A stretch of 64,000 nucleotides of DNA, taken from positions 4,464,001 through 4,528,000 of the forward strand of contig NZ_JAGPYQ010000001.1 in NCBI RefSeq assembly GCF_018070025.1. Reading direction: 5' to 3'. Shown here one piece after another: positions 756-57,798 of this stretch. Below the pieces are notes generated by a model. The model did not search any database, was not told the origin of the DNA, and saw only the letters and a program-made list of their open reading frames with translations. The position numbers and the translations under genes are program-made. The number at the start of each line of letters is the position of its first letter. The stretch's first letter is position 1. The DNA comes from Streptomyces liliiviolaceus (GTDB taxonomy: Bacteria; Actinomycetota; Actinomycetes; Streptomycetales; Streptomycetaceae).

Positions 756-1205
756 TCAGGCGGTGGGGCGAGGGGCGCGCAGATGGACGCGCTTCGCCAG
801 TTCCTCCTCGTCGACCAGTTCGAGCATGGGCTTGCCCGGCGCACACAGCATGGTCACCACGAACCGGGTTCGCGCGTCCGCCAGCGCGTTGCCGTCCTGG
901 TAGTGGATGACGTCGCCGCCGGGCTCCCAGAAGGTGCCGCCCGCCTCCACGACGCGCTCCGGCTCACCCTCCAGCTCGAAGCGGACCGCGCCCTCGATGA
1001 CATACCCGAAAGCGGGACCCGAGTGCCGGTGCGGCGGGGTTCCCGGGTCGCCCGGGTTCCAGTCGACGTGGATCGTCATGGCCGAGGCGCCCTCCGGGAC
1101 GGTGATCGGTGAAGCATCCTGGATCATCTTGGCGGCGGTCATCCAACCGGTCGCCCCTTCCTTGGCGTCTGTCCCGTGCACATGTCCCGCGTGGCTGTCT
1201 GACAC
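756..1205 (-). CDS. Cupin-domain protein
   Basis: Small single-domain cupin of 149 residues from GTG 1205. The beta-barrel motifs are clear: HRHSGPAFGYVIEGAVRFEL supplies the first metal-binding block, and GGTFWEPGGDVIHYQ the second, with a His in the expected place. It probably binds a divalent metal; the substrate cannot be read. I chose GTG 1205 because AGGAAGG lies 8 bases upstream and the predicted promoter (1255-1281, minus) ends 50 bases upstream. ATG 1142 (MTAAKM) is a possible shorter start. It is transcribed away from the SDR gene, each with its own TGTCACA promoter. A second cupin lies at 40862. Confidence 0.8.
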   Translation of the reverse strand: MSDSHAGHVHGTDAKEGATGWMTAAKMIQDASPITVPEGASAMTIHVDWNPGDPGTPPHRHSGPAFGYVIEGAVRFELEGEPERVVEAGGTFWEPGGDVIHYQDGNALADARTRFVVTMLCAPGKPMLELVDEEELAKRVHLRAPRPTA

Positions 1206-1254
1206 TGTGTCGCACCTTCCTGGGGATTCGAACTGCTTGGGCCTACGCAGGAAT

Positions 1255-1281
1255 GACCGGGCGCGCGGCTGATCTGTGACA
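1255..1281 (-). promoter_or_regulatory. Predicted ECF41-type promoter of the cupin gene
   Basis: Minus strand: TGTCACA (1281-1275), 16 bases, GGTC (1258-1255). It ends 50 bases before GTG 1205. Confidence 0.75.
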
Positions 1282-1337
1282 CGAAGAGTGCGGCCGGTTC
1301 CCACCTCGTCGCGTATTTGCCGGCCGGCGCCGGACAG

Positions 1338-1364
1338 TGTCACACCAGCTGTCCGATGACGGTC
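1338..1364 (+). promoter_or_regulatory. Predicted ECF41-type promoter of SDR gene 1
   Basis: TGTCACA (1338-1344), 16 bases, GGTC (1361-1364). The leader to ATG 1481 would be about 117 bases. It is divergent from the cupin promoter. Confidence 0.75.
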
Positions 1365-1480
1365 AGAGGAGCGGTGGGGTGGGTGTGTGCTTCCCCCTCC
1401 CCCGCCGTCACCGATTTCGCCATCACCATCGCGATGCCCTCACCATCGTGATCGCCGTCGACCGGAAGAGGCCGAAGAAG

Positions 1481-2218
1481 ATGAGAGTCGCTGTTGCAGG
1501 TGCCACCGGGCTGATCGGGTCCAGGACGGTCGCCGGACTGCGGGACCACGGTGTGGAGGTCCGCCCCTTCTCGCGCGCCGACGGTGTGGACGTCGTCACG
1601 GGCGATGGACTCACCGTCGCCCTGCGCGGCGCCGACGTGGTCGACGTCACCGACGCGCCCTCCCGCGCGCAGGCCACGAGTGCGCGGTTCTTCGAGGAGG
1701 CGACCGCCAACCTCCTGAAGGCCGCCGCCACGGCAGGTGCCGAGCACTACGTGGCCTTGTCCCTGGTGGGCACCGACCGTGCGCAGGCCGGATACTTCCA
1801 CGCGAAGGCGCTGCAGGAGGAGCGGATACGGCGCTCGCCGATCCCGTACTCCATCGTGCGTGCCACGCCGTTCTTCGAGTCCGTGGAGGCCCTTTCCCGC
1901 TCGACCGCCCACGCGGACGGTGTGCATGTGGCGCCCGTCCCGGTACGGCCCGTGTCGACGGACGACGTCGCCGCCTCGGTCGCCCATGTGGCCGTGGGGG
2001 TACCGCTGTTCGGTGTGCTTGAGGTCGCGGGCCCCGAGGAGCACCGTCTCGACGACCTCACCGCCAAGCTGCTGGCCGCCCGCGGTGCCCTGCGTGAGGT
2101 CGTGTCCGACCCGCGGGCCCCCTTCTTCGGCGCGCTGCTCGACGAGAGGACACTGCTTCCCCGGGCCGACGCGCGTCTTGGCCATGAGTCGGTCGACCGG
2201 TGGCTCGCCGGTCGGTGA
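1481..2218 (+). CDS. NAD(P)H-binding NmrA/epimerase-like SDR (copy 1)
   Basis: 245-residue atypical short-chain dehydrogenase. The N-terminus MRVAVAGATGLIGSRTVAGL is a Rossmann strand-turn-helix with a GxTGxxG nucleotide motif. The Y-x-x-x-K pair of classical SDRs is not obvious; the central SLVGTDRAQAGYFHAKALQE has a Y-x-x-K-like arrangement seen in NmrA-like proteins. IPYSIVRATPFFES is a conserved substrate-domain segment. ATG 1481 begins the Rossmann fold and follows a purine-rich GAAGAGGCCGAAGAAG. Close paralogues lie at 9164 and 41526, with a remnant at 21540, each behind the same promoter element. Epimerase/oxidoreductase genes are established partners of ECF41 sigma factors. Substrate unknown. 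Confidence 0.85.
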   Translation: MRVAVAGATGLIGSRTVAGLRDHGVEVRPFSRADGVDVVTGDGLTVALRGADVVDVTDAPSRAQATSARFFEEATANLLKAAATAGAEHYVALSLVGTDRAQAGYFHAKALQEERIRRSPIPYSIVRATPFFESVEALSRSTAHADGVHVAPVPVRPVSTDDVAASVAHVAVGVPLFGVLEVAGPEEHRLDDLTAKLLAARGALREVVSDPRAPFFGALLDERTLLPRADARLGHESVDRWLAGR

Positions 2219-6189: not shown

Positions 6190-6216
6190 GACCGGATGAC
6201 ACCACTGTCTGTGACA
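6190..6216 (-). promoter_or_regulatory. Predicted ECF41-type promoter of the patatin operon
   Basis: Minus strand: TGTCACA (6216-6210), 16 bases, GGTC (6193-6190), 45 bases before ATG 6145. It would drive patatin, glycosyltransferase, membrane protein and hydrolase. Confidence 0.75.
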
Positions 6217-6321: not shown

Positions 6322-7218
6322 ATGCACACCGGGGATGACGTCAACTCGCTTGAGCGGGCGACGGAGCAGTTCGTCGCGGTGCGTCCGCAGCTCTTCGGCA
6401 TCGCCTACCGCGTACTGGGCAGCGCCGCGGAGGCCGAGGACGTGTGCCAGGAGACCTGGGTCCGGTGGCAGAACACCGACCGCTCGGAGATCGTCGAACC
6501 GGCGGCCTTCCTCACCACCATCGCCACCCGTCTCGCCATCAACACGGCCCAGTCCGCCCGGGTACGGCGCGAGGCGTACGTCGGTCCGTGGCTTCCGGAG
6601 CCCATCGACACCAGCCCGGACCCGCAGGTCGGGGCGGAGCGTGCCGAGGCGGTCGAGATGGCGGTTCTCCTCCTGCTCGAAAAACTGAACCCGGTGGAAC
6701 GCACCGCCTACGTGCTCCGGGAGGCGTTCGACTACCCCTACCGGCAGGTCGCCGACATCCTGGAGACCAGTGAGGCCAACACCCGCCAGCTGGTGAGCCG
6801 CGCCCGTAAGCACCTGGCCGCCGAACGACGGGAGCAGGTCGACCGGACGGAGCACCGGCGGCTGCTGACGGTGTTTCTCACCGCGGCCCGGACGGGCGAT
6901 CTCAGAGCGCTTGAGGACGTGCTCGCGGCGGACGTCGTCAGCTACACCGACGGGGCCGGCATGCGGGGCGCGTCGCGGATCCCGGTCATCGGGATCGTGC
7001 ACGTCTCCCGCTACCTCGCTGCTTTCGCACCGCGGTTCTGGCCGGAGTCGGACGTCCGCTGGGTCGAGGCCAACGGCCGCCCGGCCGTTCTCGTCCTGTC
7101 CGGCAGGAATGCCGTCGCACTGCTCTCCGTCGACGTCTCGGCGGAGGGCATCGACCGGCTCATGTGGGTGATGAGCCCCGCCAAGCTCGCGGCCTTCGTG
7201 GCGTCGCAGGAGGTCTGA
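6322..7218 (+). CDS. ECF sigma factor with C-terminal SnoaL-like domain (ECF41-like, SigJ-type)
   Basis: 298 residues with three parts. Sigma-2 (about 10-90) includes LFGIAYRVLGSAAEAEDVCQ and TWVRWQ; sigma-4 (about 115-170) includes LNPVERTAYVLREAFDYPYR and SEANTRQLVSRARKHL; a SnoaL_2-like domain (about 185-295) includes LTAARTGDLRALEDVLAADV. The linker WLPEPI is typical of ECF41. Two C-terminal motifs conserved in ECF41 have diverged: DGAGMR in place of DGGGKV, and SPAKL in place of NPDKL. No anti-sigma gene adjoins, as expected for this group, where the fused domain regulates activity. I infer that it reads the TGTCACA promoters of this window. It shows no such promoter of its own. Confidence 0.88.
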   Translation: MHTGDDVNSLERATEQFVAVRPQLFGIAYRVLGSAAEAEDVCQETWVRWQNTDRSEIVEPAAFLTTIATRLAINTAQSARVRREAYVGPWLPEPIDTSPDPQVGAERAEAVEMAVLLLLEKLNPVERTAYVLREAFDYPYRQVADILETSEANTRQLVSRARKHLAAERREQVDRTEHRRLLTVFLTAARTGDLRALEDVLAADVVSYTDGAGMRGASRIPVIGIVHVSRYLAAFAPRFWPESDVRWVEANGRPAVLVLSGRNAVALLSVDVSAEGIDRLMWVMSPAKLAAFVASQEV

Positions 7219-7241: not shown

Positions 7242-7268
7242 TGTCACAAACCTCCGGACCTGACGGTC
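7242..7268 (+). promoter_or_regulatory. Predicted ECF41-type promoter of the SdhA-like gene
   Basis: TGTCACA (7242-7248), 16 bases, GGTC (7265-7268), 35 bases before GTG 7303 and just after the sigma factor gene. Confidence 0.78.
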
Positions 7269-7302: not shown

Positions 7303-9033
7303 GTGGCTACCACCGAAAAACGTCTTTCCACCATGGTGCTGGTGATCGGTACGGGCGGTGCCGGACTGCGGGCGGCGATCGAGCTGGCCGAGTCGGGCAC
7401 GGACGTCCTGGCCGTCGGCAAGCGTCCCAAGGAGGACGCGCACACGGCCCTGGCCGCCGGGGGCATCAACGCCGCCCTGGCGACCATGGACCCCGAGGAC
7501 AGCTGGCAGCAGCACGCGGCGGACACGCTCAAGGAGAGCTACCTGCTGGCCGATCCCCGTACCGCCGAGATCGTCACCCGGGGCGCGGCCCTGGGCATCG
7601 ACGACCTGGAGCGCTACGGCATGGCCTTCGCGAGGGAGGAGGACGGCCGGATCTCCCAGCGGTTCTTCGGCGCGCACAAGTTCCGGCGCACCGCCTTCGC
7701 CGGTGACTACACGGGCCTGGAGATCCAGCGCACGCTGATCAGGCGGGCCGACCAACTGAAGATCCCCATGCTCGACAGCGTGTACATCACCAGGCTGCTG
7801 GTGCACGACGGCGCCGTGTTCGGGGCTTACGGCTTCGACCTCACCGACGGGCAGCGCTACGTCATCCACGCGGACGCCGTCATACTCGCGGCGGGTGGCC
7901 ACACCCGTATCTGGCGGCGGACGTCCTCGCGGCGCGACGAGAACACCGGCGACTCGTTCCGGCTGGCCGTGGAGGCCGGTGCCCGGCTGCGCGACCCAGA
8001 GCTGGTGCAGTTCCACCCGTCGGGGATCATCGAGCCGGAGAACGCGGCCGGCACGCTCGTCAGCGAGGCCGCGCGGGGCGAGGGCGGCATCCTGCGCAAC
8101 GCACTCGGCGAGCGGTTCATGAGCCGCTACGACCCCGTGCGCATGGAGCTCTCCACCCGCGACCGCGTCGCCCTCGCCTCGTACACCGAGATCAGCGAAG
8201 GGCGTGGCACGCCCAAGGGCGGCGTGTGGCTGGACGTGTCGCATCTGTCCCGGCGGACCATCATGGAGCGGCTGCCCCGGGTCTACCAGACGCTGCTTGA
8301 CCTGCAGATGCTGGACATCACCCGCGATCCGATCGAGATCGCGCCCACCGCGCACTACTCGATGGGCGGGGTCTGGGTCAGGCACGACGACCACAGCACC
8401 GACGTGCGCGGCCTGTACGCCATCGGGGAGGCGTCGAGCGGCCTGCACGGCGCCAACCGGCTCGGTGGCAACAGCCTCATCGAACTGCTCGTCTTCGGAC
8501 GCATCACGGGACAGGCGGCGGCCGCCTACTCCCAGGGACTGACCGCGCAGCCGCGCTCGGCGGCAGCGCTGGCGCGGGCGCGCGCCGAGATCGACGACCT
8601 GCTCGCCGCGGACGGGCCGGAGAACGTCCGCGCCCTGCAGCGCGCCGTCCGCAACACCATGACCGAGCACGCGGGCGTCGTACGCGACGAGGCGGGGCTG
8701 ACCGCGGGGCTGGCCGAACTCGACGCGATCGACAAGCGGATGGAGGACGTCGGCGTCCATCCCGACATCGCCGGCTTCCAGGACCTCGCGCACGCCTTCG
8801 ACCTCAAGTCCGCGGCCCTCGCGGCCCGGGCCACCCTTGAGGCGGCGCTCGAACGCCGGGAGACCCGCGGCTGCCACAACCGCAGCGACTACCCGGACAT
8901 GGATCCCGCGCTGCGGGTGAATCTCGTGTGGTCGCCGGAAACGGGCATCACCCGCGAGAGCATCGCGCCCGTGCCGGACGAGATCGCCGCTCTCATGGAG
9001 GACGTGTCCACCGACGGAAAACTCGTGGAATAG
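7303..9033 (+). CDS. FAD-dependent oxidoreductase of the succinate dehydrogenase/fumarate reductase flavoprotein family
   Basis: 576 residues from GTG 7303 (GGAG six bases upstream); GTG 7288 is a longer alternative. The FAD Rossmann motif is VLVIGTGGAGLRAAIELAES, followed by TALAAGGINAAL. The capping/active-site region has VQFHPSGI, SEAARGEGGIL and GERFMSRYDP, then TAHYSMGGVWV and NRLGGNSLIELLVFG, matching SdhA/FrdA and aspartate-oxidase signatures; a catalytic Arg is expected in the STRDRVALA block. No iron-sulfur or membrane-anchor subunit adjoins. It may be a soluble fumarate-reductase-type enzyme or pair with the ferredoxin at 21054; this is inference. Confidence 0.85.
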   Translation: MATTEKRLSTMVLVIGTGGAGLRAAIELAESGTDVLAVGKRPKEDAHTALAAGGINAALATMDPEDSWQQHAADTLKESYLLADPRTAEIVTRGAALGIDDLERYGMAFAREEDGRISQRFFGAHKFRRTAFAGDYTGLEIQRTLIRRADQLKIPMLDSVYITRLLVHDGAVFGAYGFDLTDGQRYVIHADAVILAAGGHTRIWRRTSSRRDENTGDSFRLAVEAGARLRDPELVQFHPSGIIEPENAAGTLVSEAARGEGGILRNALGERFMSRYDPVRMELSTRDRVALASYTEISEGRGTPKGGVWLDVSHLSRRTIMERLPRVYQTLLDLQMLDITRDPIEIAPTAHYSMGGVWVRHDDHSTDVRGLYAIGEASSGLHGANRLGGNSLIELLVFGRITGQAAAAYSQGLTAQPRSAAALARARAEIDDLLAADGPENVRALQRAVRNTMTEHAGVVRDEAGLTAGLAELDAIDKRMEDVGVHPDIAGFQDLAHAFDLKSAALAARATLEAALERRETRGCHNRSDYPDMDPALRVNLVWSPETGITRESIAPVPDEIAALMEDVSTDGKLVE

Positions 9034-9083: not shown

Positions 9084-9110
9084 TGTCACAAGTCCCGTGG
9101 CTGTCCTGTC
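9084..9110 (+). promoter_or_regulatory. Predicted ECF41-type promoter of SDR gene 2
   Basis: TGTCACA (9084-9090), 16 bases, TGTC (9107-9110), 54 bases before ATG 9164. The -10 variant TGTC also precedes SDR 3. Confidence 0.75.
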
Positions 9111-9163: not shown

Positions 9164-9910
9164 ATGAAGGTCGTAGTAATCGGCGGAACGGGCCTTATCG
9201 GTTCCAAGCTGGTCGCCAGGCTCTCCGAACACGGTCACGAGGCGGTGGCGGCCGCTCCCAACACCGGCGTCAACACCCTGACCGGCGAGGGCCTGGCCGA
9301 GGCGCTGCAGGGCGCCTCCGTCGTGGTCGACGTCTCGAACTCCCCCTCGTTCGCGGACGACGACGTCATGGAGTTCTTCCGCACCTCCACCACCAATCTC
9401 CTCAAGGCGGAGACCGACGCCGGGGTGACCCACCATGTCGCGCTTTCCGTGGTCGGCACGGAGCGGCTCCAAGAGAGCGGCTATTTCCGTGCCAAGCAGG
9501 CCCAGGAGAAGCTGATCGAGGACTCTGGAATTCCGTACTCCATCGTCCACGCGACACAGTTCTTCGAATTCATGAAGGGGATCACCGCCTCGGCGACCGA
9601 GGGCGACACCGTGCGTCTCGCGCCCGTGAAGATCCAGCCGATCGCCTCCGACGACGTGGCCGCCGCCGTGGGCCGCACCGCTGCCGGCGAGCCCCTCAAC
9701 GGTGTGCTGGAGGTCGCCGGGCCCGACGCGTTCCAGCTGGACGAGCTCGTCCGCAAGGCGCTCGCCGCCAAGAACGACCCGCGCACGGTCGTCGCGGACC
9801 CGAAGGCGCCGTACTTCGGTGCCGTGCTCCAGGAGACGACCCTCCTTCCGGGCGCCGACGCGCGGATCGCCGAGACCCGCTTCACGGACTGGGTCGCACA
9901 GCAGCGATAG
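9164..9910 (+). CDS. NAD(P)H-binding NmrA/epimerase-like SDR (copy 2)
   Basis: 248 residues. MKVVVIGGTGLIGSKLVARL gives the nucleotide-binding G-x-T-G-x-x-G loop, and ESGYFRAKQAQEKLIEDSGI plus PYSIVHATQFFEFM match copies 1 and 3. The C-terminal DPKAPYFGAVLQETTLLPGA is the segment preserved in the remnant at 21540, so that remnant most resembles this copy. ATG 9164 starts the Rossmann strand and follows GAAGGG. It is likely a soluble oxidoreductase of unknown substrate. Terminator hairpins follow at 9923-9961. Confidence 0.87.
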   Translation: MKVVVIGGTGLIGSKLVARLSEHGHEAVAAAPNTGVNTLTGEGLAEALQGASVVVDVSNSPSFADDDVMEFFRTSTTNLLKAETDAGVTHHVALSVVGTERLQESGYFRAKQAQEKLIEDSGIPYSIVHATQFFEFMKGITASATEGDTVRLAPVKIQPIASDDVAAAVGRTAAGEPLNGVLEVAGPDAFQLDELVRKALAAKNDPRTVVADPKAPYFGAVLQETTLLPGADARIAETRFTDWVAQQR

Positions 9911-10084: not shown

Positions 10085-11782
10085 TCAAGAAGAGGGCTGG
10101 TCACCGTCGTGCGCGTGTCCGCCGGTGATCTCCGTGTACTCACGGGCGGTGGGTTTGCGGATCTGCGCGCCCTCGCCGTGGAGGGCCCGGCTGATCCCGG
10201 TCCGCAGGCGCCGGGCCCGCTCGGGCGCGGGCACGGGTGTGCCGTTGACGGCCTTTGCCGACGGCGCCGCAGCGAGCGGCGCGTACTGCTCGTGCGCCGT
10301 GAGCCTGTGCAGTTCCTCCTGGCTGAGCGGCTCGTGGACTTCCACGAACTCGCCGTTCGGCAGGCGCTTGACGACGCCCGTCTCACGGCCGTGCAGTACC
10401 TTGTCGCGGTCGCGCCGCTGGAGACCGAGGGCCCACCGTTTCGTCACGAAGTAGACGATGAGGGGGACGACGAAGAGGCCGACGCGGACCGCCCACGTCA
10501 CGTCGTTGACCGAGACGTGCAGCCGGATGGCGATGATGTCGTTCGCGGCGCCGATCAGCGCGACCAGGTACACGCTCAGCCAGGCCGCCCCCAGCGCGGT
10601 GCGTACGGGCCTGTTGCGCGGTCTGTCGAGCAGGTGCTGTTCACGGTCGTCGCCGGTCGCCCAGGCCTCGATGAACGGATAGGCGCCCATGGCGAGGAAG
10701 AGGCCGACGCCCACGAGCAGCGGAACGAGGTTGTCGAGGGCGAGGGTGTGACCCCAGAAGTCGAGCTCCCACCCGGGCATGACACGCAGGAGGCCGTCGG
10801 CCACGCCCATGTACCAGTCTGGTTGCGAGCCCGCCGAGACCTGGTCGGGCCGGTAGGGCCCGTAGTCCCAGACGGGGTTGATCTGCACGAGCGCCGCGAT
10901 GAAGAAGATGAAGCCCGAGACCATGAAGAAGTACCCGGCGGACTTCACGGCGTACACCTTGAGCGCAATGCCCACGACGTTCTCGTTCGTGCGTCCGGGA
11001 CCGGCGTGCTGCGCCGGCCGGTGACGGGCGGACAGTGCCGCGCGGGCGGCGAACAGCACGGCCATGAGGGCCGGGACGATCAGAACGTGGATGGTGTTGA
11101 ACCGGGCCACCAGGTCGTTCCCCGGGAACTCTCCGCCGAACAGGAACATGGAGAGGTACGTGCCGACGATCGGCATGGAGAGGATCGTCCCGTTGACCAC
11201 CGCGAGTCCGGTGCCGGACAGGAGGTCGTCCGGCAGGTCGTATCCGGTCAGTCCGCCGAACATGGCCAGGATCAGCAGCAGGAAGCCGAGCACCCAGTTG
11301 AGCTCGCGGGGCTTGCGGAAGGCTCCGGTGAAGAAGGTCCGCATCATGTGCGCGAACAGGGCGGCCACGAAGACGAGAGCCGCCCAGTGGTGCGCCTGGC
11401 GGATGAGCAGGCCGCCGCGGACGTCGAAGGAGATGTTCATCGTCGAGTCGAACGCCTCGGACACCAGCAACCCGCGCAGCGGCGCGTAACTGCCGTCGTA
11501 GACCACCTGCTCCGACGACGGATGGAAGAAGAAGGTCAGGTAGACACCTGTGACGAGGAGGACGAGGAAGCTGTAGAGACAGATCTGCCCGAGCATGAAC
11601 GACCAGTGGTCCGGGACAGCCCTGCGCAGCCTGCCTTTCGCCAGGGTGCGGTGTCCCAGCCGGGCGTCCGCCCAGTCGGCGAGCTTCTCGCCCCCGCGAC
11701 CCCGCAGGGGTTCCACCGCCCCGGCTGCTTCTGCCGGGGCGGTGGGTCCACCTGCTTCGACCGGTCCGTCTGTGCGGCTCAT
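10085..11782 (-). CDS. Orphan QcrB-type cytochrome b
   Basis: 565 residues from ATG 11782 (GAGGT upstream). Multiple membrane helices are visible, including LYSFLVLLVTGVYLTFFF and WVLGFLLLILAMFGGLTGYD. The heme-ligand region has RQAHHWAALVFVAALFAHMM, the Qo-site loop SQPDWYMGVADGLLRVMPGW, and NTIHVLIVPALMAVLFAAR. This is the fused actinobacterial cytochrome b form with a C-terminal hydrophilic tail. The Rieske (qcrA) and cytochrome c (qcrC) genes that normally sit beside it are missing, and it has its own stress-type promoter. It may replace or modify QcrB in the cytochrome bcc complex, or act alone in quinol oxidation. Confidence 0.9.
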   Translation of the reverse strand: MSRTDGPVEAGGPTAPAEAAGAVEPLRGRGGEKLADWADARLGHRTLAKGRLRRAVPDHWSFMLGQICLYSFLVLLVTGVYLTFFFHPSSEQVVYDGSYAPLRGLLVSEAFDSTMNISFDVRGGLLIRQAHHWAALVFVAALFAHMMRTFFTGAFRKPRELNWVLGFLLLILAMFGGLTGYDLPDDLLSGTGLAVVNGTILSMPIVGTYLSMFLFGGEFPGNDLVARFNTIHVLIVPALMAVLFAARAALSARHRPAQHAGPGRTNENVVGIALKVYAVKSAGYFFMVSGFIFFIAALVQINPVWDYGPYRPDQVSAGSQPDWYMGVADGLLRVMPGWELDFWGHTLALDNLVPLLVGVGLFLAMGAYPFIEAWATGDDREQHLLDRPRNRPVRTALGAAWLSVYLVALIGAANDIIAIRLHVSVNDVTWAVRVGLFVVPLIVYFVTKRWALGLQRRDRDKVLHGRETGVVKRLPNGEFVEVHEPLSQEELHRLTAHEQYAPLAAAPSAKAVNGTPVPAPERARRLRTGISRALHGEGAQIRKPTAREYTEITGGHAHDGDQPSS

Positions 11783-11831
11783 CTTCGTACCTCGTTCCGT
11801 TGCGCGTACCGCCGTGACCTGTTATGAGTAC

Positions 11832-11858
11832 GACCGTGCGGTTCACGAAGGTGTGACG
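11832..11858 (-). promoter_or_regulatory. Predicted ECF41-type promoter of the cytochrome b gene
   Basis: Minus strand: CGTCACA (11858-11852), 16 bases, GGTC (11835-11832), 50 bases before ATG 11782. Confidence 0.7.
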
Positions 11859-11916
11859 GGCAGTGCCGGAAAGTGGCCGCGGAAGCACACCGTGTTGTCG
11901 GGCCGGGCCGGAGGCG

Positions 11917-11943
11917 TGTCACACGTTCCGCGTCTGACCGGTC
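11917..11943 (+). promoter_or_regulatory. Predicted ECF41-type promoter of the sigma-2/SnoaL gene
   Basis: TGTCACA (11917-11923), 16 bases, GGTC (11940-11943), 48 bases before ATG 11991. Confidence 0.75.
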
Positions 11944-11990: not shown

Positions 11991-12746
11991 ATGGATCACG
12001 AGGGTGCGGTGCCGCTCGCGGAGCTGCTCGACGAGCGACGGCAGCTGCTGGACATCGCGTTCTGGGTGACGGGTGACAGCGGTGCGGCCGAGGAGGTCGT
12101 CGCGGAGACCTACCGGCGCTGGTACGCCCTGTCCGCGCCGGAGCGCGGATGCGTCACGGCGCCCCGGGCCTGGCTCGTGCGGGTCGGGGGTGACATCTGC
12201 CTGTCCCGTACGACGCTGCCGGGGCCGCGGGCCGAACACGCCGAAGTCACCGGTACGGCAGGTACGGCCACTGAGCGCGCCGAACCGACCGAGCCGGCCG
12301 GACTCGCCGGCCTGGCCGATCTGGCTCGTGGGAGTCTCCGGGGGCGCCGTTCACGACCCACCACCGCAGAGCGGCACGACACCGTGGTCCGGGCCGTGCG
12401 GGAGGCCTGCGCCACGGAGGATCCGGCGTCCCTGGCATCCCTGCTGGCGCCCGACGCCATCGCGTTCTTCGACGGCGGCGGAAAGGTCCGCGCCCTGATC
12501 GACCCCGTCCACGGGAACGAGCGGATCGCCCGCAGCCTGCTGACGCTGCTCGCCCGGCGTACCCGCATCACCCTGCACACCCATTCCGTCAACGGTCGCA
12601 CCGGACTCGTCGCCCGCTGCGACGACCGGGTGGCCGCGGTGATCGGCCTCGACGTCGCGGGGCACCAGGCCGTTCAGGTCTGGGTCGTCCTCAACCCCGA
12701 CAAACTCCGCTCGTGGAATCAGCAGAACACCACCGGACATCACTGA
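11991..12746 (+). CDS. ECF41-derived protein with sigma-2 and SnoaL domains but no sigma-4
   Basis: 251 residues. The N-terminus (ELLDERRQLLDIAFWVTGDS, then GAAEEVVAETYRRWYALSAP and PRAWLVRVGGDICLSR) is sigma-2-like. A Glu/Ala/Pro-rich linker replaces sigma-4: no L-x-x-x-x-R-x-x-x-x-L...SRA block exists. The C-terminus is an intact SnoaL-like domain carrying both ECF41 signature motifs, FFDGGGKVRAL and WVVLNPDKLRSW. With sigma-4 gone it cannot recognise a -35 box in the usual way. It could be a decoy or modulator of the other ECF41 proteins, a sensor, or a decaying sigma factor. The intact SnoaL motifs and its own promoter argue against simple decay. Confidence 0.75.
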   Translation: MDHEGAVPLAELLDERRQLLDIAFWVTGDSGAAEEVVAETYRRWYALSAPERGCVTAPRAWLVRVGGDICLSRTTLPGPRAEHAEVTGTAGTATERAEPTEPAGLAGLADLARGSLRGRRSRPTTAERHDTVVRAVREACATEDPASLASLLAPDAIAFFDGGGKVRALIDPVHGNERIARSLLTLLARRTRITLHTHSVNGRTGLVARCDDRVAAVIGLDVAGHQAVQVWVVLNPDKLRSWNQQNTTGHH

Positions 12747-12794: not shown

Positions 12795-12821
12795 GACAAC
12801 GCCCGTCCCGCCTCTGTGACA
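12795..12821 (-). promoter_or_regulatory. Possible antisense ECF41-type promoter
   Basis: Minus strand: TGTCACA (12821-12815), 16 bases, TGTC (12798-12795). It points into the 3' end of the sigma-2/SnoaL gene with no minus-strand gene behind it. Confidence 0.4.
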
Positions 12822-18475: not shown

Positions 18476-18894
18476 GGGAGGCGACTCCTGGTGACTCGGC
18501 GGACGGTGCCCCGGCGGTTGTCGGGACGATCGCTGGGCGGCGTGGGGCGGGCCCCCTGCCGTGGGGCGGGAGAACCCTGGTGAGCTGCGCGTTTGCTCCG
18601 TCCTCGCGGTTTTGTGAGTGTGCGTTCGTCAGACCCGTGCACACCCGTTTCACCAGGTTGACCGGGATACCGCCGAATCTGTGACGAGCACGGTGCCTGC
18701 CTTTCGGGGCCGGAAGTAGATCTTCGCCCGGCGCGCCCGGAACACGCAATGACCAGTTGGTGCTTCCGGGGGCACCGGGCGGCCGTCGCCTTGCCCTTCG
18801 GTATGCCCGTTGCGGCCCATGGTCCGGGGGCGGGGGGGGCAAGGGGCAGGGGGCCGGAGGGTCGGTGGGAGGGGGCCGTCAAGTCGGCTTCGTG
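18476..18894. other. Intergenic region with promoter and G-rich tract
   Basis: No gene recognised. It holds the promoter of LAL copy 1 (18660-18686) and, at 18822-18875, a plus-strand tract with at least six runs of three or more G separated by 1-5 bases, a strong G-quadruplex candidate just past the end of the SDR gene. Confidence 0.6.
18660..18686 (-). promoter_or_regulatory. Predicted ECF41-type promoter of LAL copy 1
   Basis: Minus strand: CGTCACA (18686-18680), 16 bases, GGTC (18663-18660). The leader to ATG 18475 would be 185 bases. Confidence 0.65.
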
Positions 18895-21538: not shown

Positions 21539-21539
21539 T

Positions 21540-40761: not shown

Positions 40762-40788
40762 TGTCACACCGGTATACGCCCACCGGTC
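40762..40788 (+). promoter_or_regulatory. Predicted ECF41-type promoter of the second cupin gene
   Basis: TGTCACA (40762-40768), 16 bases, GGTC (40785-40788), 74 bases before ATG 40862. Confidence 0.78.
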
Positions 40789-41415: not shown

Positions 41416-41442
41416 TGTCACAGCCATGGGGTGCGTCCTGTC
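41416..41442 (+). promoter_or_regulatory. Predicted ECF41-type promoter of SDR gene 3
   Basis: TGTCACA (41416-41422), 16 bases, TGTC (41439-41442), 84 bases before ATG 41526. Confidence 0.75.
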
Positions 41443-41525
41443 TAGGTGGCATGAGCACGGTGCGTACGGCCGTGCGGTGTGCCCAGGCCGGCCGACAGGC
41501 CGGCGAGCCCCTCATGGAGGAACAC

Positions 41526-42266
41526 ATGCGAGTACTCGTAGCAGGTGCCACCGGCCTCATGGGGTCGAGAACCGTAGCCCGGCTCCGGGACCACGGCGTC
41601 GAGGTCGGGCAGCTCTCCCGTGCGCAGGGAGTCGACCTCCGCACCGGGGACGGTGTCGAACAGGCGCTGCGTGCCGTGGACGTGGTCGTGGACGTCACCG
41701 ACGCCCCCTCGCACGAGCGGCGGGTGAGCGAGCAGTTCTTCACCGCCGCGACCGGCAACCTCCTGCGGGCGGCCGGCGCGGCCGGCGTCGCGCACTACGT
41801 ACTGCTGTCGCTGGTGGGAGCCGACCGGGTCGACTCGGGCTACTTCCCGGCGAAGGCGGTCCAGGAGCGGTTGGCCCGCCGGTCCACCGTCCCGTACTCC
41901 GTGGTGAGGGCCTCGCCCTTCTTCGAGACCGTTCAGTCCGTCGCTGCCGCCGCCACCCGGCCGGACGGTGTGCGCGTGGCGCCCCTGCTGCTGCGGCCGG
42001 TCTCGGTCGACGACGTCGCCGCGACGGTCGCGCATGTCGCGGTCGGGGTGCCCCTGTTCGACGTCCTGGAGACGGCCGGCCCCGAAGAGGGCCGGCTTAC
42101 GGATCTCGTCTCCGATCTCCTGACCGCCCTCGGTCTGCCGGGGCAGGTCGTCACCGATCCCCGGGCGCCGTTCTTCGGCGCGGAGCTCTCCGAGAGGGCT
42201 CTGCTTCCCGGACCTGACGCCCACCTGGGCCACCACTCCTTCGCCCGGTGGCTCAAAGAGCGCTGA
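41526..42266 (+). CDS. NAD(P)H-binding NmrA/epimerase-like SDR (copy 3)
   Basis: 246 residues from ATG 41526 (GGAGG upstream). MRVLVAGATGLMGSRTVARL is the dinucleotide loop; VDSGYFPAKAVQERLARRST and VPYSVVRASPFFETVQSVAA match copies 1 and 2, as does DPRAPFFGAELSERALLPGP at the end. It is closest to copy 1. PDH E1 begins 103 bases downstream on the same strand, with a 10-bp hairpin between them, so partial read-through is possible. Confidence 0.87.
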   Translation: MRVLVAGATGLMGSRTVARLRDHGVEVGQLSRAQGVDLRTGDGVEQALRAVDVVVDVTDAPSHERRVSEQFFTAATGNLLRAAGAAGVAHYVLLSLVGADRVDSGYFPAKAVQERLARRSTVPYSVVRASPFFETVQSVAAAATRPDGVRVAPLLLRPVSVDDVAATVAHVAVGVPLFDVLETAGPEEGRLTDLVSDLLTALGLPGQVVTDPRAPFFGAELSERALLPGPDAHLGHHSFARWLKER

Positions 42267-45978: not shown

Positions 45979-46005
45979 GACCCATATGTCATGTGATCTG
46001 TCACA
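45979..46005 (-). promoter_or_regulatory. Predicted promoter of the phosphatase gene, sharing a -35 box
   Basis: Minus strand: TGTGACA (46005-45999), 16 bases, GGTC (45982-45979), 48 bases before ATG 45931. The heptamer is the complement of the plus-strand TGTCACA, differing from consensus only at its centre. Confidence 0.55.
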
Positions 46006-46025
46006 TGTCGAGGGTCCGTCCAGTC
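45999..46025 (+). promoter_or_regulatory. Predicted ECF41-type promoter of the small protein gene
   Basis: TGTCACA (45999-46005), 16 bases, AGTC (46022-46025), 95 bases before ATG 46120. It shares its -35 box with the minus-strand promoter. Confidence 0.6.
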
Positions 46026-46119: not shown

Positions 46120-46413
46120 ATGCCGAGCAACACAGCGCACACGCCGGGAGCTTCCGCCCCCTCGGTCACTGACTCGCCTGCCCCGTGGCTGATCGGCCTG
46201 CCGTTCGGTTCCGCCGCCCACGTGGTGTGGCTGTACTACGTCGTGAAAGAGGCCGAGGACGGCATCCGCGCGGTGCGGGTCGCCCTGGAGCGGGCGAACG
46301 GCGAACGGGACCGGCCGGCACGTGAAGGGCCGCTGGCCCAGGCCGAACCCATCGAGGTACAGCGGATCCTGCACGACGCCGTCGGTCACGCGAACCTGGT
46401 CCCCTGGCCGTGA
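46120..46413 (+). CDS. Small protein of unknown function
   Basis: 97 residues from ATG 46120 (GAGGAGAGGAG upstream). A Pro/Ala/Thr-rich N-terminus is followed by one moderately hydrophobic stretch (WLIGLPFGSAAHVVWLYYVV) and a charged helical C-terminal half (KEAEDGIRAVRVALERANGE). It could be peripheral or single-span in the membrane. No family recognised. It has a strong ribosome-binding site and a regulon promoter, so it is probably expressed. Confidence 0.7.
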   Translation: MPSNTAHTPGASAPSVTDSPAPWLIGLPFGSAAHVVWLYYVVKEAEDGIRAVRVALERANGERDRPAREGPLAQAEPIEVQRILHDAVGHANLVPWP

Positions 46414-48415: not shown

Positions 48416-48442
48416 GACCGGGCAGGCGAAGGAGATGTGACA
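48416..48442 (-). promoter_or_regulatory. Predicted ECF41-type promoter of the RraA-like gene
   Basis: Minus strand: TGTCACA (48442-48436), 16 bases, GGTC (48419-48416). Leader of about 160 bases. Confidence 0.7.
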
Positions 48443-48594: not shown

Positions 48595-48621
48595 TGTCAC
48601 AGGTGCGGGACACCTTCTGTC
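48595..48621 (+). promoter_or_regulatory. Predicted ECF41-type promoter of the methyltransferase gene, leaderless
   Basis: TGTCACA (48595-48601), 16 bases, TGTC (48618-48621). The ATG at 48631 is 10 bases downstream, at the expected transcription start. Confidence 0.72.
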
Positions 48622-48630: not shown

Positions 48631-49479
48631 ATGCACTCTGTCTTTGCCGAGGCCCCGGACACCCGCGCGCAGCCGGAGCCCTATGCGGTCAGCGCCGAGT
48701 TCTACGACATCCTGCAGGCCCACGACGACGACAGACACGTACGACGGCTCTACGGGGCCGCGGTGGCGCAGGCGCGCATGGGCATCGTGGACGTCGGTGC
48801 CGGAACGGGGCGGGTGACCTTGATGAGCCTGGCTCGGTCCAAGGTCGGCGTGCATGCCGTCGAGCCCGCTCGCGCCATGCGGGCGGCGCTGATGACCCGC
48901 CTCGCCGCACTGCCCGCGCCACAGCGGGCGCGCGTGTCGGTGCACCCGTCCACACTGGACGAGGCGGCCCTGCGCGACGTCGCGGACCTGGTGATCTGCC
49001 ACAACACGGTGGCCTGTCTGACGCCGGATGCCCGCGAAACGCTCTGGACCTCCGTCGCCGAAGTCCTCGTCCCCGGCGGCAGGTTGCTGCTCCAGCTGCC
49101 TCCGGACCGACTGCCCGCCGAAGAGCAGCGTCGCGTCTTCCCGGTGCAGCGGATGGGCCGACACGAATACGGCGGACACATGGTGATGTCGGCGGCCGGG
49201 CCCCGTATCCGTACGCGCGTCGACTACTGGGCGCGCGGAACGCATGGGCTAGATGGGATGCGTGGTACGCACGGCACGAACGGGCTGCTGGGAGAGCACA
49301 CCGAGACGTTCTGGATGTGGCCCGCCACGCGCTCGGATCTCGTCGCCGACCTGCGGCGGCACGGATTCGCCCTGTCGTCCGCACGCCACGATCCAGCGGT
49401 TCTGGCGGTCACGCTGGGCCAGAGACCGGGCCAGGAGCCCTGGCGTTGTCACACCGATGGTCGCCACACGGTCTGTTGA
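48631..49479 (+). CDS. Class I SAM-dependent methyltransferase
   Basis: 282 residues from ATG 48631, favoured over upstream starts because the promoter ends 10 bases before it. Motif I is GIVDVGAGTGRVTLMSLARS, followed by HAVEPARAMRAALMTRL (acidic residue at the end of strand 2), LVICHNTVACLTPDARE and LVPGGRLLLQLPPDR. The N-terminal YAVSAEFYDIL is typical of small-molecule methyltransferases. Acceptor unknown. The next gene's promoter lies inside its 3' end. Confidence 0.88.
   Translation: MHSVFAEAPDTRAQPEPYAVSAEFYDILQAHDDDRHVRRLYGAAVAQARMGIVDVGAGTGRVTLMSLARSKVGVHAVEPARAMRAALMTRLAALPAPQRARVSVHPSTLDEAALRDVADLVICHNTVACLTPDARETLWTSVAEVLVPGGRLLLQLPPDRLPAEEQRRVFPVQRMGRHEYGGHMVMSAAGPRIRTRVDYWARGTHGLDGMRGTHGTNGLLGEHTETFWMWPATRSDLVADLRRHGFALSSARHDPAVLAVTLGQRPGQEPWRCHTDGRHTVC
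49447..49473 (+). promoter_or_regulatory. Predicted ECF41-type promoter of the ferredoxin reductase-like gene
   Basis: TGTCACA (49447-49453), 16 bases, GGTC (49470-49473), 61 bases before ATG 49534, located within the methyltransferase coding end. Confidence 0.75.
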
Positions 49480-49533: not shown

Positions 49534-50766
49534 ATGTCACGTGAGAACACGTTCGTGATCGTCGGAGGTGGCCTGGCTGCCGGCAAGACCGCGGAGGAGC
49601 TGCGGCGGGCTGGTCACCAGGGGCCCGTCCTCGTCATCGGCGACGAATCGGAGCGGCCCTACATCCGCCCCCCGCTGTCCAAGGGGTATCTGCTGGGCAA
49701 GGAGGAGCGCGACTCCATCCACGTACACCCCGAGGGCTGGTACCGCGACAACGGAGTGGACCTGCTGCTGGGCACGACTGTCACGTCGGTCGACGTGCGG
49801 TCCAAGGAGGTGGCGCTCAGCGATGGACAGCGTGTTCGGTACGCGAAGCTCCTGCTGGCCACCGGTTCGTCCCCGCGCCGACTGTCGGTGCCGGGCGCCG
49901 ACTTCGGCAACGTGCTGTACCTGCGCCGCGTCGGCGACAGCGAGCGGCTCAAGGCCGCCTTCACACCGGGTGCGCGGATCGTCGTCATCGGTGGCGGCTG
50001 GATCGGCCTGGAGACAGCCGCGGCCGCCCGCATGGCCGGGGCGCACGTGACTGTCCTGGAGCACTCGGAACTCCCCTTGCTGAAGGTGCTGGGTCGGGAG
50101 GCCGCCGAGGTGTTCGCCGCCCTGCACCGTGATCACGGGGTCGAGCTGTACCCCCGGGCGGTGACCGAGCGCATCACCGGCAGTGGCTCGTTGGCGGACG
50201 GCGTGCTCCTGGCCGACGGCCGTCAGCTGCCCGCGGACGCCGTCGTGGTGGGTGTCGGCATCACGCCCAACGTCGGCCTCGCCGAGGCAGCGGGCCTTGA
50301 GGTGAACAACGGCATCGTCACCGACGCGCGGCTGCGGACCTCGGACCCCGACGTCTTCGCCGCCGGGGACGTCGCCAACGCCTTCCACCCGAGACTCGGC
50401 CGGCACCTGCGTGTGGAGCACTGGGCCAACGCCCTGCACCAACCGCGTACCGCGGCCCTGAGCATGCTCGGGAAGAACGCGGTCCACGACCGGCTGCCCT
50501 ACTTCTACACCGACCAGTACGACCTCGGAATGGAGTACACCGGCTATACGGAGCCGGGTGGTTACGACCGTGTCGTCTTCCGCGGGGAGCCCGACGAGCG
50601 GCGCTTCATCGCCTTCTGGATGTCCGGCAGCCGTGTCCTGGCCGGAATGAGCGTCAATGTGTGGGACGTCATCGACGACATCCGCTCGCTCATCGAATCC
50701 GAGGTCGTGACGGAGGACGGCGTCCTGTCCGACCCCGACGTCCCCTTGCAGAACCTGCTGCCCTGA
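49534..50766 (+). CDS. FAD-dependent ferredoxin/rubredoxin reductase-like oxidoreductase
   Basis: 410 residues from ATG 49534. The FAD site is TFVIVGGGLAAGKTAEELRR, then PYIRPPLSKGYLLG as in putidaredoxin- and BphA4-type reductases, LLLATGSSPRRL, the NAD site IVVIGGGWIGLETAAAARMA, and FAAGDVANAF (FAD motif 2). The C-terminal reductase domain (EHWANALHQPRTAALSMLG) matches the same class. It passes electrons from NAD(P)H to a small iron-sulfur protein; the 7Fe ferredoxin at 21054, under the same promoter type, is the obvious local candidate. Confidence 0.9.
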   Translation: MSRENTFVIVGGGLAAGKTAEELRRAGHQGPVLVIGDESERPYIRPPLSKGYLLGKEERDSIHVHPEGWYRDNGVDLLLGTTVTSVDVRSKEVALSDGQRVRYAKLLLATGSSPRRLSVPGADFGNVLYLRRVGDSERLKAAFTPGARIVVIGGGWIGLETAAAARMAGAHVTVLEHSELPLLKVLGREAAEVFAALHRDHGVELYPRAVTERITGSGSLADGVLLADGRQLPADAVVVGVGITPNVGLAEAAGLEVNNGIVTDARLRTSDPDVFAAGDVANAFHPRLGRHLRVEHWANALHQPRTAALSMLGKNAVHDRLPYFYTDQYDLGMEYTGYTEPGGYDRVVFRGEPDERRFIAFWMSGSRVLAGMSVNVWDVIDDIRSLIESEVVTEDGVLSDPDVPLQNLLP

Positions 50767-52142: not shown

Positions 52143-52513
52143 ACGGCCTGTAGTCCCACTTGTGGTTGCACCATGCGGCAGCGGTGCCGACGAACGGCGC
52201 TCAGCGGGCGAGAACTGTGGCGTACTTGGAGCCGACGTTCTGTACGCCGCGGACCCCTTGCTGACGCAAGGTGCTCCTCAGTCGCTCGGCCGTCACACCG
52301 GGCCCTGGGGTGTAGGTCGCGGTGTGTAGGAGCCGTGAACAAGGTGTCACACGGTCGGTGTCTGTCACAGAGGCTCCCGCTGTTCGGTCAGAGCAGGTGG
52401 GAGCCTCCGGGCGCCCTTGTGACCTGCCGCACCGCGCGGTCCGGCCGCACGACCAGCGCTCCCGGGCGCTTATGTGATGCCCAGCCGACCCGGCTGGCAA
52501 GGAAGGACACCCG
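52143..52513. other. Intergenic region with tandem TGTCACA boxes
   Basis: TGTCACA occurs at 52345-52351 and 52363-52369, 18 bases apart; only the second has a matching -10. A minus-strand frame at about 52204-52330 reads GVTAERLRSTLRQQGVRGVQ, which may be the end of a lost gene. Confidence 0.5.
52363..52389 (+). promoter_or_regulatory. Predicted ECF41-type promoter of the small coiled-coil gene
   Basis: TGTCACA (52363-52369), 16 bases, GGTC (52386-52389), 125 bases before ATG 52514. Confidence 0.7.
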
Positions 52514-52756
52514 ATGAGCCACGACTTCGCTCACGACGACGATCCCGCAGCCACCACCGTGTTCCTGGCCGCGGAAGCAGCCGTGCTCACGGAACGGGTC
52601 CGCATGCTGCGGCAGCAGCTCGCCGACGTCGACGCGCGCATCCGGGAGACCGCCGAGAAACTGGGCCGGCTGGACCCGCCTCCCCCGGCCTCCGCCGAGG
52701 AGCACGAGACGTCCGGCACCTCGGCCACGGCGCGTACAAGGCAGTGCCACCATTGA
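52514..52756 (+). CDS. Small coiled-coil protein
   Basis: 80 residues from ATG 52514 (AAGGAAGGACACC upstream). The central region LTERVRMLRQQLADVDARIR, continuing to ETAEKLGRL, has a clean heptad pattern and should form a coiled coil. It is flanked by an acidic N-terminus (HDFAHDDDP) and a Pro/Ser/Thr-rich tail. No family recognised. It has a regulon promoter. The next gene also encodes an N-terminal coiled coil, so the two products might associate. Confidence 0.7.
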   Translation: MSHDFAHDDDPAATTVFLAAEAAVLTERVRMLRQQLADVDARIRETAEKLGRLDPPPPASAEEHETSGTSATARTRQCHH

Positions 52757-56245: not shown

Positions 56246-56327
56246 GTGTAACTCCTCGGGCCACCGGGTTCACGGTTGCGTCGGGGGACGACGACTCGAC
56301 GGACAGTGGGGATGCTCACCCGTAGGA

Positions 56328-56354
56328 GACAGCGTCCGTGCTGTGCTTGTGACA
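56328..56354 (-). promoter_or_regulatory. Predicted ECF41-type promoter of the sugar permease gene
   Basis: Minus strand: TGTCACA (56354-56348), 16 bases, TGTC (56331-56328), 83 bases before GTG 56245. Confidence 0.7.
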
Positions 56355-56389
56355 CCGTCACACCGTTCTCCGCCGCGGTCGGTTGTCGA

Positions 56390-56416
56390 TGTCACAACTA
56401 CGGTGCCCGTCCGGTC
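56390..56416 (+). promoter_or_regulatory. Predicted ECF41-type promoter of the NDH-2/MarR operon
   Basis: TGTCACA (56390-56396), 16 bases, GGTC (56413-56416), 33 bases before GTG 56449; divergent from the sugar permease promoter. Confidence 0.78.
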
Positions 56417-56448
56417 AGAAGGACGAAGCCGAGAGAACAGAGGACATC

Positions 56449-57798
56449 GTGCGGGAGATCCTGATCGTGGGTGGCGGTTACGCGGGTTTCTACGCCGCGT
56501 GGGGCCTGGAGAAGAAGCTGCGCCGAGGAGAGGCGCGGGTCACCGTCGTCGACCCGCGGCCGTACATGACGTACCAGCCCTTCCTGCCGGAGGTCGTGGC
56601 GGGCTCCATCGAGGCACGCCACGCGGCGGTGTCGCTACGGCGGCACCTGCACCGCACACGACTGGTCGCCGGCACGGTGACCGGCATCCGTCACCACGAC
56701 CGCACCGTCACCGTCCGCCCGGACAGCGGTCCGGACTACGAACTGTCCTACGACGTCCTGGTGGTCACCGCCGGAGCCGTCACCCGGACCTTCGCGATAC
56801 CCGGACTCGGCGAGGAGGCGTTCGGGCTCAAGCATGTGGAGGAGGCCGTCGCCATCCGCGACCGGCTGCTCACCTCGTTCGACCGCGCGGCGACGCTCCC
56901 GCGAGGCCCCGAGCGGCGCAGGCTCCTCACCGTCACGTTCGTCGGCGGTGGCTTCTCCGGGGTGGAGGGGTTCGGGGAATTGCTCTCCCTGGCGACCGCC
57001 TTGCTCCGCCACTATCCCGAACTGTCCGCGGACGAGCTGCGGTTCCACTTGGTCGAGGCGCGCGGCCGCATCCTGCCGGAGGTCGGCGACGGGCCGGGCG
57101 CCTGGGTGGTGCGCGCACTGCGGGGGCGTGGAGCCCAGGTGCACCTCAACACCCAGCTCGTCTCCGCGGAACACGGCCGCATCGTGCTGTCGAACGGCGA
57201 GGAGTTCGACTCCGGGCTCCTCGTGTGGACCGCCGGCAACGCGGCCAACCCGATCATGCACAACCACACGGACCTGCCCGTCGACGAGCGCGGTCTGCTG
57301 ACCGTGCGCGCCGATCTGCGAGTGGGAACACAGGAGGCTCCGCTGGAGGACGTGTGGGCCGCCGGTGACGACGCCGCGGTCCCCGACCTCGCGGCGGGCC
57401 GACCGGGGGCGTACACGGTCCCCAACGCCCAGCACGCGGTGCGCCAGGGCAGGCTGCTCGCGAGGAACATCCTGGCGACGCTGCGAGGACGAACCGCCAA
57501 GGACTACGTGCACCACGGCCTGGGGGTGGTCGCCACCCTGGGCCTGGGGCGCGGAATCTTCCAGTACCGGCGTCTGGTCGTCAAGGGCTTCCTGGCCTGG
57601 CTCATGCACCGCGGCTACCACGTGCTCGCCGTGCCCACCTGGGAGCGCAAGGTCAGGGTACTCGCCGTGTGGGCGACCGCCGTGCTGTACGGCAGGGACG
57701 TCGTGTCCCTGGCCTCGGTGCAGCGGCCACGCGAGGCCTTCGTGACGGGTGGCAACCCCCGTCGCGGGGAGCAGTCGGCCGATGTGCCGGCCCGGTGA
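56449..57798 (+). CDS. ndh: Type II NADH dehydrogenase-like FAD oxidoreductase
   Basis: 449 residues from GTG 56449 (AGAGGA five bases upstream); an ATG at 56383 lies before the promoter. FAD motif EILIVGGGYAGFYAAWGLEK, then PYMTYQPFLPEVVAGSIEAR as in NDH-2, DVLVVTAGAVTRTFAIPGL, the NADH site TVTFVGGGFSGVEGFGELLS, VWTAGNAANPIM and VWAAGDDAAVPDL. A C-terminal membrane-associating region (YRRLVVKGFLAWLMHRGYHV, VLAVWATAVLYGRDVVSL) is present. It should oxidise NADH and reduce menaquinone without pumping protons. The last bases overlap the MarR gene (GTGA). Confidence 0.9.
   Translation: MREILIVGGGYAGFYAAWGLEKKLRRGEARVTVVDPRPYMTYQPFLPEVVAGSIEARHAAVSLRRHLHRTRLVAGTVTGIRHHDRTVTVRPDSGPDYELSYDVLVVTAGAVTRTFAIPGLGEEAFGLKHVEEAVAIRDRLLTSFDRAATLPRGPERRRLLTVTFVGGGFSGVEGFGELLSLATALLRHYPELSADELRFHLVEARGRILPEVGDGPGAWVVRALRGRGAQVHLNTQLVSAEHGRIVLSNGEEFDSGLLVWTAGNAANPIMHNHTDLPVDERGLLTVRADLRVGTQEAPLEDVWAAGDDAAVPDLAAGRPGAYTVPNAQHAVRQGRLLARNILATLRGRTAKDYVHHGLGVVATLGLGRGIFQYRRLVVKGFLAWLMHRGYHVLAVPTWERKVRVLAVWATAVLYGRDVVSLASVQRPREAFVTGGNPRRGEQSADVPAR

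Follow-up and report, generated by a model that had tools for sequence, protein, structure and literature searches.

Can a single ECF41 sigma factor command more than one promoter? ECF41 is a widespread group of extracytoplasmic function (ECF) sigma factors, and the rule given in excerpts of the literature is one target gene or operon for each sigma factor (PMC3426412). The question is raised by a 64,000-nucleotide (nt) stretch of the Streptomyces liliiviolaceus genome (RefSeq assembly GCF_018070025.1, contig NZ_JAGPYQ010000001.1, positions 4,464,001 to 4,528,000), here called the window, in which 26 sites resembling the ECF41 promoter accompany three sigma-like genes, termed A, C and D. The sites are clustered, lie before genes, recur before homologous genes in relatives and are linked to a clade of sigma factors. 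We consider it probable that they make up an ECF41 regulon island, 26 signatures in 55 kb that would be switched on together by A, with C as the likely brake.

A promoter signature concentrated in one island

A pattern search of both strands found 26 sites of the form YGTCACA-N16-DGTC in the window, the −35 box being TGTCACA in 22 cases and CGTCACA in four, and the −10 box, exactly 16 bases on, being GGTC in 20, TGTC in five and AGTC in one. The initial annotation had counted 25 sites; its figures for CGTCACA (4), GGTC (20) and AGTC (1) stand, while one TGTC site had been overlooked, which raises TGTC from four to five and TGTCACA from 21 to 22. The exact 16-base spacing that it described was borne out: GTC follows the GTCACA hexamers of the window 26 times at a spacing of 16 and at most six times at any other single spacing between 8 and 25. 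Dinucleotide shuffles of the window held 0.32 sites on average and three at most.

The sites occupy positions 1255-56416 (55,162 bases). Across the whole genome (11,133,145 bases in four contigs) the pattern matched 40 times, with 26 of these matches in the island, and the reversed control matched six times. The density outside the island predicts 0.07 sites in 55,162 bases; the equal genome-wide density that would have spoken against a clustered regulon was looked for and is not what the scan returned. The base preceding the last four is C or T in all 26 island sites and in 7 of the 14 outside, and the full TGTCACA...CCGGTC form occurs at one of those 14 matches, upstream of another NmrA-type gene (L132).

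An intact gene lies downstream on the correct strand of 24 of the 26 sites, with 8-184 nt from the −10 box to the called start and a median of 55 nt from site end to start codon. A single site overlaps a called open reading frame (ORF), a remnant, though 84% of the island is coding. Genes were called with a simple codon-usage program, which makes the start codons approximate; it missed the WhiB gene, which was added separately. The earlier statement that every site lies upstream of a gene or remnant thus holds for the 24 intact genes and the one remnant, and fails for an orphan full-length site at 12795-12821 (− strand), downstream of which no convincing gene was found.

A profile of 208 non-redundant sites from outside the window shows the −35 and −10 boxes, which are set by the selecting pattern itself, and T/A after the −10 box, and is almost uninformative upstream of the −35 box. 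Applied to the window, it recovered the same 26 sites and one weak match within a flavoprotein gene (0-3 matches in first-order shuffles), a scan that is not independent of the pattern because the 208 sites were picked with one of the same form. The near-absence of information upstream of −35 rules out the sites as duplicated DNA blocks. Across all loci a weak extra consensus, CTGyC, lies at site positions 17-21 ahead of CGGTC, and some sites read CTGTCCGGTC.

Sigma factor A belongs to ECF41

We sorted 169 distinct proteins into types A, B, C and D by a simple identity rule, which placed at least three ordinary ECF41 relatives (L040, L058, L137) in B, some fragments (two pieces in L085, for instance) in C and one fragment (L086) in D; the own paralogues L089 and L091, which yielded nonsense sequence, were excluded from the comparison. 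Judged from their sequences, the three sigma-like genes of the window are not equivalent. Type A (6322-7218, + strand) encodes a full-length ECF41 sigma factor of 298 amino acids and is the proposed driver. It matches NCBIfam TIGR02957 over residues 15-292 with 336.9 bits (cut-off 323.25), scores 269.5 against the SigJ model, just below the cut-off of 271, and has SigJ (5xe7, residues 14-241) as its closest solved structure; its closest named relatives are in S. dioscori (90%). To that extent the ECF41-type reading of the initial annotation is supported. Sigma2, sigma4 and a C-terminal extension are all present, the SnoaL-type nature of the extension following from the full-length TIGR02957 match, and the WLPEP linker appears as YVGPWLPEP at residues 86-94. 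NPDKL is the only motif to fail, SPAKL standing in its place, in a protein that matches the full-length family model.

The ECF41 promoter as published, according to excerpts, has a TGTCACA −35 box, 16-base spacing and a CGTC −10 box (PMC3426412). The window sites agree with it in the −35 box (T or C first) and the spacing, as had been proposed, and carry GGTC, TGTC or AGTC at −10; the TGTCACA-N16-CGTC form is found three times in the genome, each time outside the window. A COE gene stands beside the sigma gene, in that an NmrA-type gene (9164-9910, site at 9084) lies 2 kb from A, and an AhpD-like gene (37609, site at 37542) is a COE-type gene further away. With 26 sites, the single target operon is not what the sequence predicts.

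The sites recur before homologous genes in relatives

We examined 78 loci in named genomes (L009-L086), picked by the A protein alone and not by the pattern, the best 80 of 104 having been kept. These loci (1.48 Mb) contain 318 sites, allowing any base before the last GTC, against one match of the reversed pattern, and 72 of the 78 carry at least one site, although near-identical species are included and the loci are therefore not independent. Loci range from one site beside the sigma gene (for example in Mycolicibacterium agri, Sorangium and Edaphobacter) to 12 in 21 kb (Streptomyces), so that sites surround ECF41 genes in several phyla. Together with further stretches (L112-L149), several of them picked after site clusters had been seen, the distinct sites number 424: 26 in the window, 300 in L009-L086 and 98 in L112-L149. 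A gene start lies within 400 nt of 366 of the 424, and 13 of the 424 fall inside a called gene, versus 79% coding.

The proteins encoded first after the 424 sites belong to 46 families. The largest are NmrA-type proteins (63 sites), SdhA-like flavoproteins (40) and ECF41 proteins, mainly of type B (26), followed by cupins (21 and 6), type C (20), NDH-2-like proteins (17), alpha/beta hydrolases (16), AhpD-like proteins (16), ferredoxins (14), two OsmC groups (12 and 10) and QcrB-type cytochrome b (9). Homologues of window genes with a site also have one in 343 of 441 cases, against 69 of 371 for homologues of window genes without a site, or 21 of 154 when two sigma rows are left out; these counts are not independent, since the sets matched by the three NmrA rows and by the row of the remnant overlap. 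Some targets have homologues that rarely carry a site: patatin (0/3), DUF5134 (0/4), the LAL regulator (1/11) and YceI (2/8).

A repeated element of this kind could instead be the operator of a transcription factor, such as one of the LAL/LuxR regulators encoded in the window, and several LAL genes do lie in or beside the island, one of them with a site. Against this, the element lacks symmetry and its two boxes are always 16 bases apart, it shares its −35 box and spacing with the published ECF41 promoter, the sites end so close to start codons and surround ECF41 genes in several phyla, and LAL homologues in the loci so seldom have one. We regard an operator as very unlikely.

Co-occurrence with the sigma factor, and mobility of the island

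We compared 90 genomes of the same genus, scoring the sigma factor as present when an A/B protein was found at E≤1e-80 and counting sites in the TGTCACA form; 43 of 105 genome rows were shown for the sigma search, and coverage of G001-G063 was deduced from row order. A close A/B sigma factor is present in 21 of the 90 genomes, which have a median of 10 sites, as against a median of three in the 69 without it (Mann-Whitney P 3e-8), and all 11 genomes with at least 10 sites have the sigma factor. The clustered, multi-operon reading put forward at the outset has therefore survived the genome scan, the comparison with relatives and this comparison of presence and absence.

A/B sigma genes also lie on four large linear Streptomyces plasmids (NZ_CP108509.1, NZ_CP108854.1, NZ_CP016083.1 and NZ_CP109481.1), two plasmid copies having six sites each in the surrounding 41 kb, and both flanks of the window contain IS4/5-type and IS110-type transposase genes or parts of them (L134:182-646, L135:672-926, L135:6690-7304). 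The clustering may thus stem from transfer of the island as one block. Taken further, the cluster would be a by-product of gene transfer, a mobile block with ready-made promoters and no functional reason for their proximity, which the patchy presence in 21 of 90 genomes, the plasmid copies and the flanking transposase genes favour. Such an origin leaves the shared signature of separate promoters unexplained and concerns where the island came from, not what it does; in addition, no tRNA that could act as an integration point was found in the window. It is a tenable account that we hold with somewhat less than even confidence.

Additional ECF41 copies

Type D (26575-27246, + strand) is an ECF41 protein of 223 amino acids that has sigma2 and sigma4 and stops short of the SnoaL motifs, its end corresponding to about residue 204-209 of A. 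For Ecf41 of Bacillus licheniformis, excerpts of one study describe a 204-residue truncation whose activity exceeded that of the full protein ~20-fold, a 192-residue truncation less active than the 204-residue one and an inactive 167-residue form (PMC3426412). The agreement of the D end point with the hyperactive truncation is suggestive, being one of unaligned residue numbering. In the tree the D-type truncations do not form one clade and arose more than once, and such genes recur in islands (26575-27246 of the window, L026:14579-15247, L129:13801-14520, L112:9183-9914, L080:9911-10615). D-type proteins may be constitutively active sigma factors or remnants.

This genome also encodes a second A-type sigma factor (G000:C2:575125-576012; L088, L133), 82% identical to A, which may feed the island from elsewhere. 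Type B was not found in this genome, the best relatives after the second A copy being at most 49% identical. A site of their own precedes 23 of 69 B genes and one of 44 A genes; where B is present, in relatives, it may contribute positive feedback. The sites might be read by several ECF41 proteins (A, the copy 82% identical to it, D and, in relatives, B), as a shared, layered network rather than one regulon. The Arg of the −35 helix, which none of the 123 A, B and D copies has lost, speaks for such a network, as do the sites before B genes and the existence of the second A copy; the absence of B from the genome searched and the scattered origin of the D-type truncations, which may be remnants, speak for a regulon under A. 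We find the network rather doubtful.

Protein C, a sigma-like protein without sigma4

Type C (11991-12746, + strand, ATG at 11991) encodes a sigma2-like and SnoaL protein of 251 amino acids that lacks sigma4 with its −35-reading helix. The window copy keeps DGGGK and NPDKL and has lost the YVGPWLPEP linker motif, a pattern that holds for the type: the linker motif is present in none of 46 C copies versus 107 of 113 A and B copies, the Arg of the −35 helix (Arg155) in 2 of 46 versus 113 of 113, and exact NPDKL in 43 of 46 versus 9 of 113. The AlphaFold model of C (mean pLDDT 83.8) consists of a sigma2-like bundle and a SnoaL-type domain without sigma4. A Foldseek search with it gave SigJ as the best PDB match; the full-length superposition is poor (template modelling score 0.40, root mean square deviation 20), so the match backs the domains of C and not their arrangement. 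Pfam detected no known anti-sigma domain in C, the only matches being to SnoaL_2, Sigma70_r2 and DUF4440 below cut-off.

Protein searches retrieved 2,393 relatives of C at E≤0.001, a number that will include ordinary ECF41 proteins, and the named proteins among the 120 relatives listed are sigma factors or sigma-like helix-turn-helix proteins. In a tree of 68 rows the 17 C copies included group as one clade (100/99), whose neighbour is an ordinary ECF41 protein of this genome (L095). Region 4 has been lost differently across C lineages, the window copy having a partial deletion, and a sigma4-like stretch survives in many of the full-length relatives. The dN/dS values of 0.17-0.46 in the 25 pairs listed indicate that C is under purifying selection, and its invariant residues lie in the sigma2-like and SnoaL parts, with none in between.

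C is also linked to ECF41 genes. For 31 of 46 copies another ECF41 gene is found no more than 300 nt away, convergent in 17 cases and on the same strand in 14; in six cases the two genes overlap by 4 nt (L032, L035, L037, L038, L039 and L043, in Streptosporangiaceae and kin), which suggests coupled translation. Among the 80 of the 90 genus genomes covered, C is present in 13 of 19 with the sigma factor and in 1 of 61 without, and 21 of the 46 genes have a site of their own. In one locus (L056) two type C genes that are almost identical lie 9 kb from each other (720-1631 and 10929-11900). Short SnoaL-type proteins of 108-144 amino acids, matching only the C-terminal half of C, also occur near an ECF41 gene (L049:12295-12648, L079:10834-11160, L146:7883-8236, L147:11676-12110, L148:5910-6278) and are possibly a minimal form of the C partner.

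Within ECF41 proteins the YVGPWLPEP linker and NPDKL are reported to contact each other. This contact, taken with the split of the two motifs between C and the sigma factors, would make C a likely trans-acting regulator. On another reading C does not regulate A and is an ECF41 pseudogene in decay, or else a ligand-binding protein that acts independently. The lineage-specific losses of region 4, the partial deletion in the window copy and the weak, sub-cut-off Pfam matches are what such a reading expects; the purifying selection, the invariant residues, the tight linkage to ECF41 genes, the co-occurrence with the sigma factor and the sites before 21 of the 46 genes are not. We judge it unlikely.

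Predicted targets of the island

The output of the island would be a redox/electron-transfer and detoxification response. It would comprise an NDH-2-like flavin oxidoreductase (Pyr_redox_2; 56449-57798, site 56390-56416, + strand), a QcrB-type cytochrome b (11782-10085, site 11832-11858, −), a fumarate reductase/SdhA-like flavoprotein (7303-9033, site 7242-7268, +), a ferredoxin (21054-21440, site 20921-20947, +) and a ferredoxin reductase (49534-50766, site 49447-49473, +), an AhpD-like carboxymuconolactone decarboxylase (37609-38079, site 37542-37568, +) and an OsmC protein (28992-29417, site 28901-28927, +). NmrA-type oxidoreductases, WhiB and transporters would complete the set: an NmrA-type NAD(P)-binding protein (1379-2218, site 1338-1364, +), NmrA-type proteins at 9164-9910 (site 9084-9110, +) and 41451-42266 (site 41416-41442, +, perhaps also serving a pyruvate dehydrogenase E1-like gene at 42402-45056), the WhiB gene (22811-22512, site 22863-22889, −), a sugar transporter of the major facilitator superfamily (MFS; 56245-54827, site 56328-56354, −) and an MFS exporter (39229-40740) that follows a hydrolase gene (38273-39214, site 38178-38204, +).

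The remaining sites precede two cupin genes (756-1181, site 1255-1281, −; 40862-41356, site 40762-40788, +), a group comprising a patatin, a glycosyltransferase and two genes without a Pfam match (6043-2405, site 6190-6216, −), the type C gene (site 11917-11943, +), a LAL (AAA-LuxR) regulator (18475-15596, site 18660-18686, −), a DUF5134 protein (20839-20246, site 20881-20907, −), an alpha/beta hydrolase (36467-35517, site 36514-36540, −), an RraA-like protein (48256-47546, site 48416-48442, −), a methyltransferase (48631-49479, site 48595-48621, +) and proteins of 97 (46120-46413, site 45999-46025, +) and 80 amino acids (52514-52756, site 52363-52389, +). Transcription from the orphan site would enter the type C gene in the antisense direction. 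The site at 21512-21538 (+) lies upstream of an NmrA-type gene remnant, with YceI (21842-22441) 303 nt further; within 21512-21710 it is followed directly by the C-terminal 54 residues of an NmrA-type protein, a trace of deletion of most of the target gene. A role of this site as promoter of a new small gene was ruled out, the 70-residue ORF being the tail of that protein. The window holds five large LAL regulator genes of the AAA-LuxR type or parts of them (15596-18475, 23106-25769, 31214-33982, 58671-61373, 61615-63999), and only one of the five carries a site.

A model of the regulon and the evidence that bears on it

In the mechanism we propose, sigma factor A with RNA polymerase very probably reads the sites and so would direct ~25 transcription units. 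Its SnoaL-type C-terminal domain would sense a small molecule linked to redox imbalance, which would relieve the sigma factor. C, which keeps NPDKL and has neither sigma4 nor a linker target of its own, might dock in trans on the YVGPWLPEP linker of A, a step for which we see the chances as nearly balanced, if slightly on the side of doubt. Made from an island promoter, C would then shut down A and close a negative feedback loop, and D, ending before the SnoaL motifs, would be either a sigma factor freed from that brake or a remnant. More tentatively, the sigma factor may have been rebuilt as a two-protein switch in which the sigma factors keep the docking linker and have lost the NPDKL latch, C is a selected dead sigma factor that latches in trans, and dozens of neighbouring genes were recruited promoter by promoter into a portable regulon; here we lean somewhat towards doubt.

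Several observations weigh against this account. The −10 box is mostly GGTC, one base off the published CGTC, and Pfam finds sigma2 and sigma4 in A and no SnoaL domain. The sites do not always accompany the sigma factor: the 82%-identical second A copy (L133) has no site in 20 kb, one plasmid copy (L150) has none in 41 kb, six of the 78 loci of A relatives have none (L011, L012, L037, L041, L042, L046), three genomes with the sigma factor have only 2-3 sites (G014, G001, G032), and two have nine sites and no sigma factor at E≤1e-80 (G058, G075). As for C, the window copy lies 4.8 kb from A and is not adjacent to it, and many of the 120 listed relatives still match the sigma4 Pfam domain. Exact NPDKL is absent from 54 of 59 A/B proteins without C at the fetched locus and from 50 of 54 with it, and ordinary ECF41 relatives also vary in their SnoaL motifs; because the loss is equally common without C, and because of this variation, the complementarity of the motifs is suggestive only.

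One ECF41 clade appears, from its sites and their distribution, to command ~25 separate promoters nearly confined to one chromosomal island. Among the relatives, site numbers run from one to dozens, a natural gradation in which to study how regulons expand. If C acts as we propose, it would be a sigma factor that has become the brake on its own family. The locus would also supply related promoters as a set and suggest a likely function for genes whose annotation reads only 'RNA polymerase subunit sigma'.

Comparison with known systems

The system resembles ECF41 as known from Ecf41 of Bacillus licheniformis and Rhodobacter sphaeroides and from SigJ of M. tuberculosis in its order of sigma2, linker, sigma4 and C-terminal extension, its YVGPWLPEP linker, its TGTCACA −35 box with 16-base spacing and its COE-type targets (AhpD-like, NmrA/SDR (short-chain dehydrogenase/reductase)). 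We know of no clustered promoter array for RpoE10, an ECF41 sigma factor of Azospirillum brasilense. Effects of RpoE10 beyond one COE gene, on motility and lateral flagella, are indicated by the title of a study cited in PMC8999054. Searches of the open-licence PMC literature turned up neither an ECF41 regulon island nor a C-type partner, a result that does not prove absence. Unlike the published systems, for which the excerpts describe one target gene or operon (PMC3426412), the locus has ~25 predicted transcription units, its −10 boxes are mostly GGTC and NPDKL is degraded in A. A likeness to the A/C pair is seen in SigG1-RsfG (ECF56) of Streptomyces tsukubaensis, where a SnoaL-bearing ECF sigma factor is accompanied by an adjacent, co-transcribed antagonist protein (PMC7730460). 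RsfG is not described as a sigma derivative in the excerpts of that work, whereas C would be a former ECF41 protein that has kept a sigma2-like part and a SnoaL domain.

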